From: Streptacidiphilus carbonis
GTDB lineage: Bacteria; Actinomycetota; Actinomycetes; Streptomycetales; Streptomycetaceae
DNA: 64,000 bases
Direction: 5' to 3'
Assembly (NCBI RefSeq): GCF_000787775.1
Contig: NZ_BBPM01000010.1
Location: forward strand, 62,001 to 126,000
Every line of letters starts with the position of its first letter. Positions within the stretch are counted from its first letter, which is position 1. This document shows positions 5,640-50,644 of the stretch, in pieces. The position numbers and the translations under genes were made by a program. The notes under the pieces were generated by a model that saw nothing but the letters and a program-made list of their open reading frames with translations, had not been told where the DNA came from and did not search any database.

Positions 5640-8601
5640 GCTCGTCCCGGTGGAGCACCAGCGTGCTGAGCGGTGCGAGGGCGATGTGCCTGTCGTCGCT
5701 GACGTGCTTGCCGGTGGTCAGGTCGGTGGCCGATCCGAACGCCTTGCGGTGCGGCAGGGTGAAGGTCTTGTCGGTCGTGGTGTTCATGGCGATGTAGTAG
5801 TCGCCGTACTGGCAGAGGTAGAGCGGGGCCTTGCCGACCAGCATGCTCTCCACGCCGGTGAAGTGGACGCCGAGGGTGGGGTCGGGGACGTCGGCGGGGA
5901 TCGGCGCCAGCGGGTAGACGTCGCCGGCCAGTGACTGGTGCAGGGTGTCGCCGGGCGGCGGGAAGCCGCCCGGGGGGATGCCCGCCGCGCCGGGGTCGTT
6001 GATGGCGTAGTCCCACAGGATCCAGTCCAGTGCGGTGAAGGTCGCGCTCGTGGCACCGGAGCTGTTCTGACGGATCGTCGCGGAGCGCTGGTCGACCGGG
6101 GTGACGTGGTGAACCCGGGCGTAGTTGTTGACGCCCTGCCGGGCCCGCCAGTAGAGCGAGGCGTAGAGCAGTTCCTCACCGTTCTTGACGGCGACCACGC
6201 CGTCCTCCTCGTCGGCGAAGACGAAGGCAGGGGCGTTCCAGTCGGTGGGCAGCCGGTAGGGGCGCGAGGGGAGCGCCTGGTAGGCGTCCCAGTCCCGGGC
6301 CACCAGCCGGAAGGCGTTCAGGCCGACCCTGGTCCAGGAGTTGGAGGTCATCAGGTCCAGCTGCCGGTAGAACTGCCCGTCTGCGAACATCTCCTGGGTC
6401 CAGCCGATGATCTCCGGGTCCTTGAGGACGACGGCTGCCTGGATGGGGTGCGAGTCCCAGGCGGTGCGCTGGGCGTAGCCGACCTCGCCGGGGTAGACCT
6501 CGTTGCGCCAGCCGACGACGGTCTCCAGTCGGGCGACACGGCCGCCTGCCTCGTCGATGTCCAGGATGCGGAACTTGCTGCGGGCCTTGACCATCTTGAC
6601 GATCTGCGCCTTCAACGCGGGGTCGTCCTGGGGCTGGTAGCCGCGGGTGATCGACTCGTACATCATGATCAGCCAGTCGGTGACCTCGCCGTAGTTGCCG
6701 ACGTAGCCCAGCTCGCGGGTCAGGCCCTTGGCGGTGACCTGGTTGTAGGAGCGGCCGAGTGGAACGGTGGGGGTGCCGTCGGCTGCATCGGGGCCGAGGT
6801 AGGGGGTCAGCCCGACGGACTGGTACATGAAGCTGCGGGCCTTGTCCTCGGTCCACGCGAGGGCGGGGTCCAGCAGTCCCAGCGCCCGGTTGACCTGATA
6901 GAGGCCGATCGCGCAGATCTGGGTCTGGTTGGAGTAGTGCGGGAAGTGCTCGCGCCAGTAGTCGCGGCTGGCCTGCAGCATGGCCGTGTAGGCGGCGCGG
7001 CGGACCGGTGCGGCGTGGCTGCTGGCCGACGGGGCCAGCAGGGTGACGTCGTCGATCCAAGCGGTGCCGCCGTCGTGGACACCGATGAAGAGCCAGGCCG
7101 AGACTGCGGTCGCCGGGGTGGCCAGGGTGGTGGACAGGTAGGTCCAGTCGTAGGTTCCGGCGGGCGCGTAGACCTTGTTGTCGGTTCCGACGATGGCGCC
7201 GGCGGCGTTGTAGAAGAGCACGTCGAGGTAGATGCCGGTGCCGGTGAGATTCTGCCCCCTGACCCAGACGCCGTACTCGTAACTGCCCTGATCCAGGCTG
7301 ACCTTGGTGTTGTTGTTGACTGCTATCGCGTTCGCGCCGGTCGCGTTGTGTTCCAGCTTCATCGAGTAGGTGCCCGAGTGGGCGTAGGTCGAGTCGCGGC
7401 TCGCGGTGCCGTTGGCGGTCCACCCGGCCACCGACCAACCGGTGGCCGTGGTTCCGCTGCCGTTCTCGAAGCCGCCGTTCGTGATCGAGTACGGCGACCC
7501 GGTGACCTGCTGGTCCAGGCGGGTGCCGAGGTGCTCCCAGAGCAGCGCCAGGACCAGGCCGACCCGGCCGAAACCCTGCCACTGCTGGTCGGAACCGGTG
7601 AGTACGGCGGGACTCCTCTGCCAGGCGTTGTAGCGGCCGTCGATGGCCTGCAGGGTGCGGTCCAGCGCGGTGTCCGACTGGTAGCCGGAGCCGTCGGACC
7701 AGAAGTAGGACTCGGCCAGTTGCTGCATCGCCCAGCCGTCCAGGTTGGCCGGGTCGGCCGTGGTCAACAGGGCGGTGGTGTCCTTCAGCACCCGGGCCCT
7801 GACCGCGGTGAGCACCTCCGGGCCCTCGACCGTGCGCACGGCCGGGACCGGGGCGGCCCCCTGGACGTCGCCGGCCGGCGCGGTGAAGTACGGGTCGGTG
7901 TGTGTGTAGAGCCGGTAGACGGAGCGGGAGGGTGTGGTCATCCTGTAGTACAGCTGTGCCTGGTTCTGGCCGTAGGACCAGATCCGGCCCATCGAGCGGA
8001 TCTCCAGGGCGACCGAGGTCCTGCCTGTGGTGAGCTTCTCCGGGAGCGGCAGGGTGTGGAAGAAGAAGCGTCCCGGCGTGCGCGGCGCGGTGTCCAGGAT
8101 GTCGAGGTTGTCGACCTCGCCCTGGTCCTGGTAGCCGACCTGGAGACCCTCGCAGAAGAGTTGGAGACGCCACATGTTGGTCCCGCTGGCGTCCTCCGCG
8201 GAGCTGGAGTCGTACTCGTCGCCCCAGAGTTTGACGGTGACGTAGGTCGTGCCGGTGGGACTGCAGGCAAGGGTGAAGGAGAGCGTTCCGCCGTAGTAGC
8301 TGGCGGGGCTGGTCGGGTTGAGCACCCGGGCCGACTGACCCAGGCCCCCGGCAGTGACGGTGTCGGACAGGGTGGCGGTCAGGGCGTGGGCGGTCTCGGA
8401 AGCGGCGTCGCCCAGGACCAGGGTGTCCAGAAGGCCGGCGCCGGCGGACCGCTTGGACGCCGGCTGGGTCGGGGCGGTCGTGGTGCCGAAGATGGTGGCC
8501 GCCTGGGCGGAAGGGATTCCGCCGAGCCAGCCGACGCCTGCGGCGGCCCCGGCGGCTCCGGCGTACTTCAGGAGATCGCGACGCGCGGGGGTTTCGGGCA
8601 T
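5632..8601 (-). CDS. Tat-exported 989-residue protein with inserted carbohydrate-binding module
   Basis: Signal: twin-arginine motif RRDLLK at residues 7-12 and a hydrophobic Ala/Gly segment to about residue 35. Residues 55-250 look like a beta-sandwich. Residues about 370-523 are a CBM4/9/CBM22-like jelly roll, from SITNGGFENGSG to AWIDDVTLLAP, inserted in a longer alpha-rich region (about 255-370 and 530-790, many Trp and aromatic residues) suggestive of an (alpha/alpha) toroid, as in polysaccharide lyases and heparinase-like enzymes. A C-terminal beta domain closes the protein. GGAAGG precedes the ATG. It lies between the binding protein and GH43 genes, so an extracellular depolymerase feeding the transporter is the best guess; no catalytic residues could be assigned. 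Confidence 0.85.
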   Translation of the reverse strand: MPETPARRDLLKYAGAAGAAAGVGWLGGIPSAQAATIFGTTTAPTQPASKRSAGAGLLDTLVLGDAASETAHALTATLSDTVTAGGLGQSARVLNPTSPASYYGGTLSFTLACSPTGTTYVTVKLWGDEYDSSSAEDASGTNMWRLQLFCEGLQVGYQDQGEVDNLDILDTAPRTPGRFFFHTLPLPEKLTTGRTSVALEIRSMGRIWSYGQNQAQLYYRMTTPSRSVYRLYTHTDPYFTAPAGDVQGAAPVPAVRTVEGPEVLTAVRARVLKDTTALLTTADPANLDGWAMQQLAESYFWSDGSGYQSDTALDRTLQAIDGRYNAWQRSPAVLTGSDQQWQGFGRVGLVLALLWEHLGTRLDQQVTGSPYSITNGGFENGSGTTATGWSVAGWTANGTASRDSTYAHSGTYSMKLEHNATGANAIAVNNNTKVSLDQGSYEYGVWVRGQNLTGTGIYLDVLFYNAAGAIVGTDNKVYAPAGTYDWTYLSTTLATPATAVSAWLFIGVHDGGTAWIDDVTLLAPSASSHAAPVRRAAYTAMLQASRDYWREHFPHYSNQTQICAIGLYQVNRALGLLDPALAWTEDKARSFMYQSVGLTPYLGPDAADGTPTVPLGRSYNQVTAKGLTRELGYVGNYGEVTDWLIMMYESITRGYQPQDDPALKAQIVKMVKARSKFRILDIDEAGGRVARLETVVGWRNEVYPGEVGYAQRTAWDSHPIQAAVVLKDPEIIGWTQEMFADGQFYRQLDLMTSNSWTRVGLNAFRLVARDWDAYQALPSRPYRLPTDWNAPAFVFADEEDGVVAVKNGEELLYASLYWRARQGVNNYARVHHVTPVDQRSATIRQNSSGATSATFTALDWILWDYAINDPGAAGIPPGGFPPPGDTLHQSLAGDVYPLAPIPADVPDPTLGVHFTGVESMLVGKAPLYLCQYGDYYIAMNTTTDKTFTLPHRKAFGSATDLTTGKHVSDDRHIALAPLSTLVLHRDERG

Positions 8602-33428: not shown

Positions 33429-34109
33429 CTATCGGCGGCTGTTCCGTTGCTTTGCGCTGCCCGGCATGAGGTGGGATTCCCAGGCCCAGGCGGTGATCTC
33501 GCTGCGGTTGCGGGCTCCGAGCTTGTCCTGGATCGCGGCGAGGTGACCCTTCACGGTGCTGACGGAGATGAAGAGGGCGGCGGCGATCTCCTGGTTGGTC
33601 CTGCCCCGGGCGACGGCGCGGACGACGTCGGTCTCCCGGTCGGTGAGCGGGGTGTTGGGTCGGAGGGCGGAAGGGGTTGTGACGGGGGCGAGGTCGCGGA
33701 GCAGGCGCCGGGTGATCGACGGGGAGATCAGGGCGTCCCCGACGCCGGCAGCGCGCACGGCGGCGGCGAACAAGGCGGGGTCGCCGTCCTTGAGGACGAA
33801 TCCGAGGGCTCCGGCCTGGAGGGCGCCGTGGACGTACTCGTCGAGTCCGAAGGTGGTGACGATGACGACCCGGAGTGGGTCGACAACGCCCGGGCCGGCG
33901 AGCGCGCGGGTGACGTCGATGCCGTCGAGGCGGGGCATGCGGATGTCGATGAGGCAGACGTCGGGCCGCAGTTGGCGGGCAAGGTCGACGGCCTCGGCAC
34001 CGTCGCGTGCTTCCGCGACGACGGTGATGTCGGGCTCGTCCTCCAGGATGAGGCGCAGGCTGGTGCGGATCATGGCCTGGTCGTCGGCGACCAGCACGCT
34101 GATGCTCAT
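33429..34109 (-). CDS. NarL/FixJ-type response regulator (second system)
   Basis: 226 residues; phospho-acceptor Asp55 (DVCLIDIRMP), Thr and Lys switch residues in place, LuxR HTH from LTDRETDVVRAVARGRTNQE to the SVSTVKGHL recognition helix. ATG 34109 overlaps the kinase stop by four bases. The neighbouring plus-strand ABC-2 exporter operon, facing away from the kinase, is its likely target through the 14-bp inverted repeat between them. Confidence 0.95.
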   Translation of the reverse strand: MSISVLVADDQAMIRTSLRLILEDEPDITVVAEARDGAEAVDLARQLRPDVCLIDIRMPRLDGIDVTRALAGPGVVDPLRVVIVTTFGLDEYVHGALQAGALGFVLKDGDPALFAAAVRAAGVGDALISPSITRRLLRDLAPVTTPSALRPNTPLTDRETDVVRAVARGRTNQEIAAALFISVSTVKGHLAAIQDKLGARNRSEITAWAWESHLMPGSAKQRNSRR

Positions 34110-35248
34110 CGGCGGTCTCCGTTCGGCAGGGGCAGGGTGGCCCGTACCGACCAACCAGTCCCGGGCTGCGGACCGGCGTCGAGCGTTCCGCCCAGGGCCT
34201 CGATGCGCTCGCGCATGCCGACCAGACCGTAGCCGGCGCGCGGGGAGGCGCGGATCGGGGGGTGCGGCGGAGCGTCGTTGCCGATCTCGACGGTGATGTC
34301 CGTGCAGTCCTGGGAGATGGTGACGGTTGCCGCGCGGGCGCCGCGGGCATGGCGGGCGATGTTGGTCAGGGATTCCTGGACGACCCGGTACACGGTGCTG
34401 GTGACCACGGGTGGCCAGGGCGGCGCCCCGGTGGGCAGCCGGAGGTCGACGGCCGGTCCGTGCTCCTCGAAGCGGCGGACCAGGTCGACGAGTTGCTCCG
34501 GTCCCGCGGTTACGGCGGCACCGTCCTCCGCGTCGCGGAGCAGCGCGACCACCCGTCGCATCGCGTCCATGGCGTCGGTGCCCGAGCGCTCGATGTCCGC
34601 CAGGGCGGTGCCGAGGCGGTCGGGCTGCTTGCGGAGCATGATCTGGGCGGCGTGGGTATGCATCACGATGCCGGACACGTGGTGGGCGACGACATCGTGC
34701 AACTCCCGTGCCAGGGCCAGGCGTTCGTCACGCCGCACCGCCTCGACGGTGGCCTGGCGGCGTTGCTCCAGGAAGCGCAGGACGAGCCCCGTGCCGAGGC
34801 CGAGCAGCCAGCACTGGACGCCCACGTGGAACGAGCCGACGGCAGTCGGCGTGGTCGCGAGCCGGCCGAGTGTCGTGACCGCGAGTCCGGCGGCGGCAAC
34901 CACCACTGCTCGCCGGAGCGGCAGCACCCGGACCGCCGAGCCGGCGAGGACGGCCAAGGCCAAGGACGCGGCCAAGCCGGGCTGAGCGGTCAGGTACCCC
35001 CTGCTGGAGGCAAGGACCGCGGCAGCCGCGACGGACAGGCCGACGGCCACGGCGACCAGCCGGTCGCGCCCTCGAAGCAGCGCCGCGAGGCACACCACCG
35101 CGCTGACGCCGCAGTCGAGCGCCCAGTCCCGGCGCCCCGCGTCGGCACGGTGGTAGGCCGTCGCTGCCAGGATCGCCGCGAAGGCGAGCCCGGACAGGAC
35201 GTTGGTTCGTCTGGCGGCCAGTGCGCCCAGTGCGGCGAGCCGTTCCAT
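34106..35248 (-). CDS. Sensor histidine kinase (second system)
   Basis: 380 residues. Residues 15-165 hold five or six membrane helices; HisKA_3 phospho-acceptor His in ARELHDVVAHHVSGIVMH; ATP-lid motifs ESLTNIARHA and GYGLVGMRERIEALGG. ATG 35248 is taken as start; GTG 35257 is possible. The frame runs much further upstream through the regulatory region, which has no coding character. Forms a coupled pair with the response regulator. Confidence 0.93.
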   Translation of the reverse strand: MERLAALGALAARRTNVLSGLAFAAILAATAYHRADAGRRDWALDCGVSAVVCLAALLRGRDRLVAVAVGLSVAAAAVLASSRGYLTAQPGLAASLALAVLAGSAVRVLPLRRAVVVAAAGLAVTTLGRLATTPTAVGSFHVGVQCWLLGLGTGLVLRFLEQRRQATVEAVRRDERLALARELHDVVAHHVSGIVMHTHAAQIMLRKQPDRLGTALADIERSGTDAMDAMRRVVALLRDAEDGAAVTAGPEQLVDLVRRFEEHGPAVDLRLPTGAPPWPPVVTSTVYRVVQESLTNIARHARGARAATVTISQDCTDITVEIGNDAPPHPPIRASPRAGYGLVGMRERIEALGGTLDAGPQPGTGWSVRATLPLPNGDRR

Positions 35249-35290
35249 CACACTCACGGTGCTCAGACTACGGAACCGGCCGTGAACGCT

Positions 35291-35344
35291 GTACCGGCCA
35301 AAAGGACCGCTCCGATCCGCCCGATCAGTACTTTTGGCCGGTAC
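35291..35344. promoter_or_regulatory. 54-bp interrupted palindrome between divergent kinase and ABC genes
   Basis: GTACCGGCCAAAAG at 35291-35304 and its exact complement CTTTTGGCCGGTAC at 35331-35344, separated by 26 bases. Each arm itself contains CGGCC and an A-tract. The centre-to-centre distance of the arms is 40 bases, close to four helical turns, suiting two regulator dimers on one face of the DNA. It sits 43 bases before the kinase ATG and about 90 before the ABC operon, so it is the natural site of the paired response regulator. Confidence 0.8.
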
Positions 35345-35376
35345 GAGCCACAGTCGGCGTGCGCAGGCTTGACGGC

Positions 35377-35442
35377 ATGCAACGAGACCTCGACACACCC
35401 CGCGGCGACGCGGGGTCCGCACGAGCCGGCAGGTGGATGTGA
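35377..35442 (+). CDS. Possible 21-codon leader frame before the ABC operon
   Basis: ATG at 35377 reads MQRDLDTPRGDAGSARAGRW then M and stops at TGA 35440-35442, overlapping both candidate GTG starts of the next gene (35433, 35439). The direct overlap would couple translation of the first permease to this short frame. No clear ribosome site precedes the ATG, so it could also be chance. Confidence 0.3.
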   Translation: MQRDLDTPRGDAGSARAGRWM

Positions 35443-36137
35443 ACCGGTCCACCTGGGCCCGCCTCCGATTGGAGCTGCGGGTCATCGGCATCGCCCCGCC
35501 GGTGACGGCACTGGCGGCAACGCTGGGCGGCGCGATCCTGGTGATCGTCATGCATGCCACCGGGGCCGGTGCGGAGCACGTCAACCTAGCCGCCGGCGCG
35601 GCCCTGGCGGGCTTCGCCCCTCTCGGCACCGCCGTCGCGGCCTCCTCGATCGTGGGGCGTGATTCCGGCGCCGAGCTGGTCATGACCACCACGGTCTACC
35701 GCCGGGTGCTGTTCCTGCGTGTCGGCCTGGTGGTGCTCCCAGCGGCCCTGGTCACACTGTTGGACGCCGTCGTATTCCGGGCCCTGAACGCGTGGCCCGC
35801 GGGCCAGGGCACGGGCGGCTACGTCCTGGTGTGGGCCCCGCCGATGCTCTGGCTGGTCGCACTGGCGATGCTCATCGCAATCGGCCTGCGCAGCCCGGGC
35901 GCCGCAAGCGGCCTGATTGCGGGCATCTGGCTGGCCCAGGACCTGATGCGGAGCGCCATCCTGGACAACACGGTGCTGCGGACACAGTTCCTGTTCATGG
36001 GCGTCGCCGACCGGGTCCCGGTGCACGAATGGACCGTCAACCGAATCGCCCTGCCCACCGTCGGCGTCGTCGCCGTGATCGCGGCCGGCCTGCTGCTGGG
36101 GCGTCCCGAACGATTCCTGGGGAGCGATGCCGCATGA
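35433..36137 (+). CDS. ABC-2 type exporter, membrane protein 1
   Basis: 234 residues with about six membrane helices (segments at APPVTALAATLGGAILVIV, LAAGAALAGFAPLGTAVAA, VLFLRVGLVVLPAALVTLL, LVALAMLIAIGL, TVGVVAVIAAGLLL). No ATPase motifs. First gene of a four-gene operon; its stop overlaps the ATG of the second membrane gene. Start is GTG 35433 or GTG 35439. Probably exports a peptide, lipid or drug whose presence is sensed by the divergent two-component system. Confidence 0.85.
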   Translation: MDVNRSTWARLRLELRVIGIAPPVTALAATLGGAILVIVMHATGAGAEHVNLAAGAALAGFAPLGTAVAASSIVGRDSGAELVMTTTVYRRVLFLRVGLVVLPAALVTLLDAVVFRALNAWPAGQGTGGYVLVWAPPMLWLVALAMLIAIGLRSPGAASGLIAGIWLAQDLMRSAILDNTVLRTQFLFMGVADRVPVHEWTVNRIALPTVGVVAVIAAGLLLGRPERFLGSDAA

Positions 36138-36946
36138 CCGCCGTCCTGGAGCGAACCGCCCCGCCGACTGCGGCTCAGGGCCGGTTGGCGAAGACCGTCG
36201 CGGCCGCCCGCTACGAGTACCTGATGCAGGTGCGCCGCCCGGCCGTCTGGCTGGTCGTGCTCGCGCTGATCACCCTGCGCTGCGCATCGCCCTTCCCGCC
36301 CGGCTTCACCAGCACCACGGACCACGCCACGCTGGTCGCGGACTGGGCGTTCAACTTCATCATGCTGTGCCCGATCGGCGTCGGCGCCGTCCTCGCCGAC
36401 CGCGCCCGGCGGGAGGCCCGGCTGGAGCTGAACGACCTCCTGACATCGACGCCCACCAGCATAGGCCCGCGCCTGTGGGGCAAGGCCATCGGCGCCGGCG
36501 CGGCGACCATCACACCGGTCGCCGTCGCCTGGGTCGGCCTGCTCGGCTACCTGACCGCCCAGCGCGGGGCCGGGGTGATCCCGGTCGGCCTCGCGGCGTT
36601 CGCCGCCATCATCCTGCCCGCGCTGCTCTTCGTCGCGGCCTACTCGGTCACCATCCCGTACCTGACCGGACCCGCACTGTACCGGCTGGGCCTGTTCGGC
36701 TACTGGATCTGGGGCAACATGGTCGGCCCGCGCTACGGCATCCCCACCCCCGCCGGAACGCCCTTCGAACCCATCGGCGAATACCCGTCCGGCGCCTGGT
36801 TCCACGGCGTCATGTTCGACGCCAAGCAGCGGGGAGTACACGCGACCGGCGGCGAGGCCGTCCTCAGCATCTCCTTCCTGCTCCTCGCAGCGCTCGCCGC
36901 CCTGGCGATCACCCACTACGTGCTCTCCAGGAGGAGCCCGTCATGA
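36134..36946 (+). CDS. ABC-2 type exporter, membrane protein 2
   Basis: 270 residues, about six membrane helices; cytoplasmic N-terminus with LAKTVAAARYEYLMQVRRPA, the amphipathic coupling region of ABC-2 permeases, and a conserved-looking RARREARLELNDLLTSTPTS loop found in bacitracin-type/NatB-like permeases. ATGA overlap with the preceding gene and again with the following ATPase gene shows tight coupling. Partner of membrane protein 1. Confidence 0.88.
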   Translation: MTAVLERTAPPTAAQGRLAKTVAAARYEYLMQVRRPAVWLVVLALITLRCASPFPPGFTSTTDHATLVADWAFNFIMLCPIGVGAVLADRARREARLELNDLLTSTPTSIGPRLWGKAIGAGAATITPVAVAWVGLLGYLTAQRGAGVIPVGLAAFAAIILPALLFVAAYSVTIPYLTGPALYRLGLFGYWIWGNMVGPRYGIPTPAGTPFEPIGEYPSGAWFHGVMFDAKQRGVHATGGEAVLSISFLLLAALAALAITHYVLSRRSPS

Positions 36947-37863
36947 CAGCGCCCAACGTGACCATCACCGATCTGACCGTCACCTTCCAGCGCGGACAGG
37001 TCCGCGCCCTCGACGGCATCAGTCTCCGCCTGCCCGCGGGCATGGTCGGTCTGCTCGGCCCCAACGGAGCCGGCAAGACCACCTTCATGCGGGTCCTGAC
37101 CGGGGTGCTGCTGCCGACCTCGGGCACCGTCGCGGTGGACGGCACCGACCTGACGTCGCGCAGCCAGCGCCGAGAGGTCAAGGCCGCCACCGGCTACCTC
37201 CCCCAGGAGCTCGGCCTGTACCCGGATCTGACGGCCAGCCAGTTCCTCGACTACATGGCGCTGCTCAAGGGCATCACCGACCGGCGCGCCCGCCGCACCC
37301 GCGTCAAGGACGTCCTCGAACTGGTCTCGCTCAGCGATGTCGCCAACCGGAAGCTGAAGGGCTATTCGGGCGGCATGAAGCGCCGCGTGGGCATCGCCCA
37401 GGCCATCCTGAACGACCCCCGTCTGCTGATCGTCGACGAGCCCACCGTGGGGCTGGACCCCGAGGAACGGCTGCGGTTCCGCAGCCTGCTCGCCACCCTG
37501 GCCGACGACCGTACGGTGCTGCTCTCCACCCACATCGTCGACGACATCGTGCAGACCTGCCCGAACGTCGTGGTGGTCGAGCACGGCAGCATCGCCTTCC
37601 AGGGCGCCATCGGCGACCTCGCCGCTCGCGCCGAGGGCATGGTGTGGCACGTCACCCAGCCGGCCACTGCCCCAGCGCCCGACCTGCCCACCGTCACCGT
37701 CACCCCCGGCATGACCGGCACCACCTACCGGGTCATCAGTTCCGGCATCCCCGCCCAGGACGCGGAGAGCGTCAGCGCCACCGTTGAGGACGGCTACATC
37801 GCCCTGATGCACGGCACCGTCCCGCAGCGGGCCCAGCACGGCCCCGACCTCCGCGCCATCTGA
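36943..37863 (+). CDS. ABC transporter ATP-binding protein
   Basis: 306 residues. Walker A GPNGAGKTT, Q-loop PQELGLYPDL, signature YSGGMKRR, Walker B LLIVDEPTVGLD, and the H-loop STHIVDD are complete; a C-terminal extension after residue 225 is typical of ABC-2 exporters. Drives the two preceding membrane proteins. Followed after 33 bases by a small membrane-protein gene. Confidence 0.96.
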   Translation: MTAPNVTITDLTVTFQRGQVRALDGISLRLPAGMVGLLGPNGAGKTTFMRVLTGVLLPTSGTVAVDGTDLTSRSQRREVKAATGYLPQELGLYPDLTASQFLDYMALLKGITDRRARRTRVKDVLELVSLSDVANRKLKGYSGGMKRRVGIAQAILNDPRLLIVDEPTVGLDPEERLRFRSLLATLADDRTVLLSTHIVDDIVQTCPNVVVVEHGSIAFQGAIGDLAARAEGMVWHVTQPATAPAPDLPTVTVTPGMTGTTYRVISSGIPAQDAESVSATVEDGYIALMHGTVPQRAQHGPDLRAI

Positions 37864-37896: not shown

Positions 37897-38058
37897 ATGT
37901 CCCAGCAGCCCCTCACCTCCGCCCTGGCCGCCTCCACCACCACCGGTTTCCATCCCGGCCTCGCCTTCTTCGTGGAGTGGGCCCTCGTCATCGGCGCCAT
38001 CATCGGCGTTCCCATCTACGTCGTCCGCCTGGTGCGCAATCGCCGCAAGAGTCGCTGA
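37897..38058 (+). CDS. Small single-helix membrane protein, 53 residues
   Basis: MSQQPLTSALAASTTTGFHP, then one membrane helix (AFFVEWALVIGAIIGVPIYVV) and a basic tail RLVRNRRKSR. Too short for usual gene callers. It ends the ABC operon in the same orientation, with GAGGACCAGCAG before the ATG as a weak ribosome site. The basic tail predicts an N-out, C-in topology. Possible roles: a stabilising subunit of the exporter or a small regulator of it; no family is recognised. Confidence 0.65.
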   Translation: MSQQPLTSALAASTTTGFHPGLAFFVEWALVIGAIIGVPIYVVRLVRNRRKSR

Positions 38059-41997: not shown

Positions 41998-42033
41998 GGG
42001 GCAGGGCCCGTCGTGGTCGACGGGCCCTGCCCC
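41998..42033. terminator. Strong hairpin terminator
   Basis: A 16-bp perfect stem, GGGGCAGGGCCCGTCG / CGACGGGCCCTGCCCC, with loop TGGT. It starts 27 bases after the stop of the minus-strand lipoprotein gene and 111 bases after the plus-strand DUF1963 gene, so it can serve both. Confidence 0.9.
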
Positions 42034-49786: not shown

Positions 49787-50644
49787 ATGACGCAGCCAGG
49801 TCGTGAGCCGACCCTCCCGCAGATGCTGGCAGCCAACGAGCGGAACTGGGACGCCCGTACGCCCGTGCACGCCGCCAGCGACTTCTACGGCCTGGACGGC
49901 TCCCGAACGGGCACCGATTGGTTCGCGCCGTTCGAGTGGTCGGACCTCGGCGACCTGCGGGGGCGCAATGTGCTGCATCTGCAGTGCCACCTGGGCACCG
50001 AGACCCGCGCTCTGGCCGAGCAGGGTGCCCAGCACACGGTGGGGCTCGACTTCTCCCGCGAGTCCATCACACAGGCCCGAAAGCTGGCCGCCGGGACAGC
50101 AGCGAGCCTGGAGTTCGTCCACGCCGACGTGCACGACGCCGTCGCCGCGCTGGGCGGACGGCGCTTCGACGTCGTCTACACCGGCAAGGGCGCCCTGTGC
50201 TACCTCCCCGACCTGAACCGCTGGGCGCAGATCGTGCACGCGCTGCTGCAGCCCGGCGGGATGCTGTACCTGGTGGAGTTCCACCCGCTGCTCAACTCCC
50301 TTGGCCCCACTCCCCAGCCGGACGAGGAACCCGGGCAGCTGCGGCTGAGCCGCGACTACCTGGGCGGCAGAGGGCCACTGCGGATCGACAACCCCCGCAC
50401 GTACACCGACGGACCGCCCTTGGACGGGGCCACGGTGAGCTACGAGTGGCGCCACGGACTCGGCGATGTCGTCCAAGCCGTGGCGGGTGCGGGGCTGCGG
50501 CTGGACGTTCTGCGCGAGACGGACCTGCTGCCCTGGCCCCGCTTCGCGGCCATGGTCCCCGGTGAAGGCGGCTGGTGGCGGCTGCCCGAGCACCAGCCGA
50601 AGGTACCGTTGATGTTCGCTCTGCGAGCCGTGAGACCGGTCTGA
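49787..50644 (+). CDS. SAM-dependent methyltransferase
   Basis: 285 residues. SAM-binding motif I is degenerate but clear: NVLHLQCHLGTETRALAEQG (LxCxxGxxT type), followed by VGLDFSRESI and FDVVYTGKGALCYLPDLN. This LQCHxG variety is common in actinomycete class I methyltransferases. AGGA eight bases before the ATG. Substrate unknown. It starts 163 bases after the aldo-keto reductase, same strand, so could be cotranscribed. Confidence 0.9.
   Translation: MTQPGREPTLPQMLAANERNWDARTPVHAASDFYGLDGSRTGTDWFAPFEWSDLGDLRGRNVLHLQCHLGTETRALAEQGAQHTVGLDFSRESITQARKLAAGTAASLEFVHADVHDAVAALGGRRFDVVYTGKGALCYLPDLNRWAQIVHALLQPGGMLYLVEFHPLLNSLGPTPQPDEEPGQLRLSRDYLGGRGPLRIDNPRTYTDGPPLDGATVSYEWRHGLGDVVQAVAGAGLRLDVLRETDLLPWPRFAAMVPGEGGWWRLPEHQPKVPLMFALRAVRPV

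Follow-up and report, generated by a model that had tools for sequence, protein, structure and literature searches.

A likely operator pair of two conserved 17-bp boxes between a NarL-type two-component system and a divergent ABC exporter operon in Streptacidiphilus carbonis

Between a two-component system and a divergently transcribed ABC exporter operon, the window (the whole stretch of 64,000 nucleotides of Streptacidiphilus carbonis DNA analysed here) carries two inverted 17-bp boxes that are, in all likelihood, a conserved operator pair of an already known kind. Judging from sequence comparison, we are fairly confident that both boxes are bound by the NarL-type response regulator encoded at 33429-34109, which would activate the two divergent operons in class-II fashion.

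The boxes contain an inverted repeat spanning 54 bp whose arms, GTACCGGCCAAAAG at 35291-35304 and CTTTTGGCCGGTAC at 35331-35344, are exact and offset by 40. An earlier note on this DNA had described perfect 14-bp arms 40 bases apart between a two-component system and an ABC exporter. We confirmed the arms letter by letter at both coordinates, and the placement holds, with a HisKA_3 kinase gene on the minus strand and the ABC operon on the plus strand. The features of the region are:

33429..34109, minus strand: response regulator, 226 aa, REC plus GerE/LuxR HTH, NarL type (Pfam Response_reg 1.6e-24, GerE 7.2e-17)
34106..35257, minus strand: sensor histidine kinase, 383 aa, GTG start (Pfam HisKA_3 6.5e-14, HATPase_c 3.8e-9; orthologues)
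35265..35270, minus strand: predicted -10 of the kinase operon, TAGTCT, separated by 20 bp from box 1 and by 7 nt from the GTG that follows; the spacing recurs
35291..35307, minus strand: box 1, kinase-proximal, GTCCTTTTGGCCGGTAC on the minus strand; contains the left arm; in 14/14 aligned orthologous loci
35308..35327, no strand: spacer between the boxes, 20 bp; length kept, sequence diverged among clades
35328..35344, plus strand: box 2, exporter-proximal, GTACTTTTGGCCGGTAC; contains the right arm; conserved columns, matrix rank 1
35364..35369, plus strand: predicted -10 of the exporter operon, CAGGCT, separated by 19 bp from box 2 and by 7 nt from the ATG that follows
35377..35442, plus strand: leader ORF, 21 codons, MQRDLDTPRGDAGSARAGRWM, predicted leaderless; stop codon TGA overlapping the start codon of membrane protein 1 (GTGA)
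35439..36137, plus strand: membrane protein 1, probable ABC permease subunit, 5 hydrophobic stretches (hydropathy, conservation)
36134..36946, plus strand: membrane protein 2, probable ABC permease subunit, 5 hydrophobic stretches (hydropathy, conservation)
36943..37863, plus strand: ABC ATPase, DrrA-like, 306 aa (Pfam ABC_tran 5.9e-33)
37897..38058, plus strand: 53-aa protein with one hydrophobic stretch, last in the exporter operon; after the ATPase in 11/11 orthologous loci

Both Pfam domains of the response regulator score over their cut-offs, and its top NCBIfam model is NarL, under that model's cut-off. The kinase and regulator genes, both on the minus strand, overlap. The top NCBIfam model of the ABC ATPase is drrA (6.3e-57, under the model cut-off), and a Pfam search of membrane proteins 1 and 2 gave no match. 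Identity of the 53-aa protein among the 11 orthologous loci ranges from 43 to 81%.

Taken by itself the repeat is weak, mildly improbable evidence since an inverted repeat as good was found in 5 of 100 dinucleotide-shuffled windows (6 matches; the criterion was a perfect inverted repeat with arms of at least 14 and an offset of 14-60), and the weight therefore rests on its recurrence in other loci. The real window holds one other perfect inverted repeat, at 41998-42033, with arms of at least 14 and a short loop; it is probably an ordinary hairpin or terminator. Elsewhere in the window the arm has four copies with 3 mismatches and no further copy with 2 or fewer. The scan of the 8.46-Mb host genome for single arms, which the earlier note had called for, places the exact arm at these two positions only. 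All told, the arm matched at 24 places and its reversed control at 34; the 22 non-exact matches all carry 2 mismatches, and because the control yields more, we consider those 22 to be background. The pattern CYTTYGGCCGGTNC gives 4 matches in the host genome against 14 for its control. With the exact arm local only and CYTTYGGCCGGTNC below its control, we do not claim a wider regulon in this genome.

Recurrence is evident among close orthologues. A search with the kinase protein returned 12 loci, ten of which, in named relatives with 80-89% identity, all have the element at the equivalent position; the other two, from Nocardia (38%) and Paenibacillus (28%), are partial-protein matches whose promoters were left out of the comparison. 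Aligning the window and the ten named orthologues with three further loci (L073, L087 and L092) gave 14 loci in which the element has one constant length. Paired arms searched with a free gap of 10-30 bp occur in 9 of 394 family genomes, always spanning 54 bp, compared with 0 for the control. The earlier note had named beforehand the loss of the arms from homologous loci as one of two results that would speak against it, the other being a lack of binding; conservation was found in 14/14 aligned loci, which supports its view that the stretch separating the two-component system from the exporter holds a regulatory DNA element. Columns invariant across the 14 loci number 12/17 in box 1 and 13/17 in box 2 (25/34 for the boxes together), 7/20 in the spacer, 6/20 in the kinase-side gap and 1/19 in the exporter-side gap; the exporter -10 is invariant at 6/6 and the leader ORF at 34/63. 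Mean column identity among the orthologues is 0.97 and 0.95 for the boxes, 0.91 for the spacer and 0.93 for the leader ORF. The boxes thus exceed the gaps, yet the leader ORF is also well conserved, so that comparison between clades is the stronger evidence.

In distant relatives the conserved unit runs 3 bases further inward on each arm, giving a 17-bp box of about GTNCYTTYGGCCGNTNC, with A favoured at position 3 and G at position 14. The two window 17-mers (35291-35307 and 35328-35344) differ from each other by one mismatch. Column information indicates that the inner GTNC is better conserved, while the outer GTAC of the 14-bp arm is poorly conserved in other clades. The arm as drawn in the earlier note includes the poorly conserved outer bases and omits the better-conserved inner ones. 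A matrix was trained on 16 boxes drawn from eight loci, all of other clades, and applied to 127,968 window positions; box 2 ranks first (21.25) and box 1 third (14.92). The second rank, on the minus strand at 50590-50606 (GTACCTTCGGCTGGTGC, score 21.16), lies inside a methyltransferase-like ORF, and no TANNNT was found at the standard distance from this 17-mer in the stretch examined. For both reasons the site is treated as a chance match.

The distance between the boxes is nearly fixed across clades. Four kinases from the window's genus, identified through protein rather than motif searches and sharing 47-56% identity, carry an inverted pair with an offset of 36 or 37 (loci L032, L033, L034 and L044, with larger stretches as L105-L108; L106 is the locus of L034, and its left box was placed at offset 37, as earlier found in L034). 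Over 23 loci, 15 of the window's clade (L101 included) and 8 of other clades, the offset is 37 in 20, 36 in 2 and 38 in 1, of which L073, L087, L092, L101 and L109 came from a pattern that presets an offset of 36-38 (L092 also from the free-gap pattern); the unbiased sample consists of the window, the ten named orthologues and L102-L108. In six chosen loci with offset 37, mean pairwise identity is 0.81 for the boxes and 0.41 for the spacer, where composition alone predicts 29%, so that the length of the spacer rather than its sequence is kept. The suggestion that the arms are spaced for two dimers on one face of the DNA is not established by these distances: the conserved 17-mers are offset by 37 bp, not 40, and 37 bp between their centres corresponds to about 3.5 turns, so that a one-face reading depends on the position of the true dyad.

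The distances from each box to the predicted promoter elements are equally regular. On the exporter side, an ATG lies 32-33 nt from the box in 23/23 loci and a NANNNT hexamer 19-20 bp from it in 22/23, the exception being L101. On the kinase side, the arrangement box-19/21-TASNNT-6/8-GTG is found in 22/23 loci, with L102 as the exception. That locus (6156-6622) shows a rearranged layout, with a box pair plus a separate third box before the kinase at the standard spacing. A leaderless-type layout, in which the -10 stands 6-8 nt before the start codon, thus recurs on both sides, with TANNNT in 22/23 loci on the kinase side and only NANNNT in 22/23 on the exporter side. Leaderless transcripts and TANNNT are reported together in the accessible part of PMC3898074. 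The centre of each box falls near -41 of its predicted leaderless promoter, as computed from the predicted -10, and the -35, scored on the kinase side only, has at most 3/6 matches in 22 loci. In relatives with direct repeats the distance between boxes is 32 bp, as scored for L047/L113 and judged by eye for L111 and L112; here too, inspection by eye places a NANNNT hexamer 19-20 bp away from the closer of the two boxes.

The leader ORF has exactly 21 codons in 15/15 loci of the window's clade, L101 included, and its amino acids vary. Its pN/pS over 14 loci is 0.74, compared with 1.10 and 0.73 for the shifted frames; given this weak amino-acid constraint, we do not claim a function for the peptide. 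In 8 loci of distant clades, an ORF of 57-84 aa comes first, directly after the box and -10; by eye, these predicted products resemble the 53-aa protein of the window.

We estimated in several ways how widely the box accompanies related regulators. Among 121 family genomes, 22 contain the 13-mer CGGCCRAAAGTAC, which has 24 places in all; its reversed control has 19, so that the 13-mer is not clearly over-represented in number. Seventeen of these 24 places lie no more than 1.5 kb from a related kinase or regulator (7 do not); in a small control, 0/6 of the two-mismatch arm matches of the host genome are near a related system. The paired pattern with the preset offset of 36-38 was searched in 200 family genomes; 27 of them hold it, with 30 places altogether, compared with 13 places for its reversed control. 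Eighteen of the 30 (15 plus L109, L108 and the contig of L010) stand beside a related two-component system and 12 have none within 1.5 kb; of the latter, ten are plain hairpins by eye. In a class-wide sample, 4 of 197 genomes match the paired pattern, and only the window's own genome has it beside such a system. In another family, L115 carries a good box pair at 5887-5939, with an offset of 36, which overlaps what is nominally the start of a hydrolase-like ORF; the 12 kb examined around it contain neither a kinase nor a regulator related to those of the window.

A search with the regulator protein, covering 61 genomes with E up to 1e-70, returned 23 relatives, 11 with a strong upstream box and 12 without, the boxes being counted irrespective of an intervening kinase gene. 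Ten of the 11 strong boxes fit box-18/20-TANNNT-6/7-start. Strong composites score at least 20, whereas the highest score among about 400 random pieces of the window is -1.2 (gaps of 19-21 for the null, 18-21 for the relatives). Among the 12 relatives without a strong box, four show, by eye, a degenerate box at the equivalent position, which in one case scores under the null maximum. Four of the 11 strong-box relatives come from clades that had supplied boxes for the matrix; the remaining seven appear to form a single orthologous group.

The HTH of 20 aligned inverted-pair regulators has TN[QH]EI....FI[ST].STVK[GS]H in common, and five other box-bearing regulators (L110-L114) have TN.EI and ST[VI]K. 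STVK is absent from all ten comparison regulator sequences. One of these ten, a regulator of 32% identity that lacks the HTH signature, has a strong single box beside it (L116 5602-5618). Locus L035 (= L126) combines an HTH close to the signature with a degenerate box only. The earlier note had proposed that the element may define the binding rule of a regulator subgroup, and this is a fair reading insofar as a similar box accompanies a number of related NarL-type regulators, but only 11 of the 23 protein-anchored relatives have a strong one.

Taken together, the near-fixed distance from box to -10, the box centre near -41 and the poor -35 on the kinase side fit class-II activation of two divergent, predicted leaderless promoters. 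The kinase would sense a signal and phosphorylate the response regulator, whose dimers would then occupy both inverted boxes, probably together given the near-fixed offset of 36-38 bp. Each box would take the place of the -35 near -41 of its own predicted promoter, and the bound regulator would bring RNA polymerase to both -10 elements in the class-II manner. The expected outcome is a simultaneous rise of the kinase/regulator operon, that is positive autoregulation, and of the exporter operon. Both transcripts are predicted to be leaderless, one starting at the GTG of the kinase and the other at the ATG of the leader ORF, whose 21 codons run into the first permease gene. Points that count against this activator model include the 12 of 23 relatives without a strong box, the conservation of the box neighbourhood among close orthologues, the 12 of 30 paired-pattern places away from such a system, the good box pair at L115, the strong box at L116 and the box-like 17-mer at 50590, which scores nearly as high as box 2.

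A box at the -35 could equally repress. The same response regulator might sit near -41 and block RNA polymerase at both promoters until a signal releases it; this would suit boxes that coincide with the -35 region of each predicted promoter, and sequence alone does not tell activation from repression. We nevertheless find repression unlikely: the kinase side is without a good -35 to block (at most 3/6 in the 22 loci), which suits activator-dependent promoters, and positive autoregulation is reported, in the accessible text of PMC4193843, for the Streptomyces two-component/ABC operon AbrA1/A2. The boxes may instead belong to a different, shared regulator that is not the cognate one and controls several two-component systems. 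The box pair of L115, with no related genes in 12 kb, and the L116 box beside a different HTH would fit such a regulator, but the exact arm is local only in the host genome and the inverted pair accompanies a particular HTH signature in the 20 aligned regulators, as expected for a local cognate regulator, which makes a shared one quite improbable.

It is hardly credible that the two arms form an RNA element, either an intrinsic terminator or an attenuator hairpin. The window arms are perfectly complementary, and the ten hairpins among the 12 paired-pattern places away from two-component systems recall such structures. However, changes in the arms are uncompensated: among 13 distinct sequences, both sides change in 1 of 182 cells, and the percentage paired is equalled by 249 of 500 shuffles. 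In addition, the element lies upstream of both predicted starts, is not followed by a T-run, and is replaced in relatives by single or direct-repeat boxes. We rejected the RNA hairpin or intrinsic terminator because the stem is without compensatory changes, and take the element to be a DNA site for the same reason; each arm seems to be kept for its own letters, as for a protein site. Activation by the cognate regulator from two DNA boxes is thus the reading that we retain.

This type of regulation has precedents. DevR/DosR of Mycobacterium, which is among the solved relatives of the window's regulator, binds cooperatively to two sites at its promoters, for example the divergent tgs1-Rv3131 promoters, with the proximal site overlapping the -35, as described in the accessible part of PMC3029386. 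DevR shares with the present system a NarL-subfamily regulator, two sites and divergent promoters, the sites here being predicted from sequence, and on that partial source it is an earlier case in which a NarL-type regulator serves divergent promoters and has a site that overlaps the -35. DevR controls a regulon, whereas the window's exact arm is confined to one locus, and unlike DevR each of the window's promoters has its own box, in inverted orientation; the letters of the DevR box were compared only via OsdR. For OsdR of Streptomyces coelicolor, also a NarL-type streptomycete regulator, a site upstream of its own gene was predicted from orthologue comparison (PMC5069765, accessible part). 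Its consensus AGGGCCGATCGGCCCT is a full palindrome, whereas the window's box is about GTNCYTTYGGCCGNTNC. We rejected an OsdR/DevR-type site since neither window 17-mer fits that palindrome as given in the accessible text. AbrA1/A2 of S. coelicolor resembles the present locus in that a two-component system adjoins an ABC exporter, and positive autoregulation is the reported behaviour; its four genes form one operon, according to the same partial source (PMC4193843), in whose accessible text no binding box is given, while the window's exporter is divergent. For CrsR, the accessible part of PMC12623338 reports no conserved motif. In the open-access literature searched, GTACTTTCGG appeared in no paper together with Streptomyces and two-component system, CTTTCGGCC together with Streptomyces and response regulator in one, on AdpA, and the 12-mer GGCCGAAAGTAC only in a cardiac-channel context; no title or abstract was recognised as describing this box; the CCAAAAG form was left out, and motif logos are unsearchable.

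The type of mechanism, NarL-family activation from a -35-overlapping site, is already established biology; the interest lies in a promoter layout that, on the present comparisons, is common to part of the related systems. To our knowledge, the binding site of most streptomycete two-component systems has never been mapped. A box at a near-fixed distance from the -10 and start codon provides a testable operator for the window's system and for some of its relatives. The layout ties each such system to its neighbouring exporter and allows start codons and leaderless transcripts to be predicted. It is conceivable, with the case for and against evenly balanced, that a streptomycete NarL-type subclass uses a readable promoter code consisting of the box GTNCYTTYGGCCGNTNC, about 20 bp, NANNNT, 6-8 nt and the start codon, with the box occurring singly, in tandem (32 bp) or back to back (37 bp). 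If this code is true, the targets of uncharacterised two-component/exporter systems would be readable from sequence, and the letters of the box could be matched to the recognition helix.
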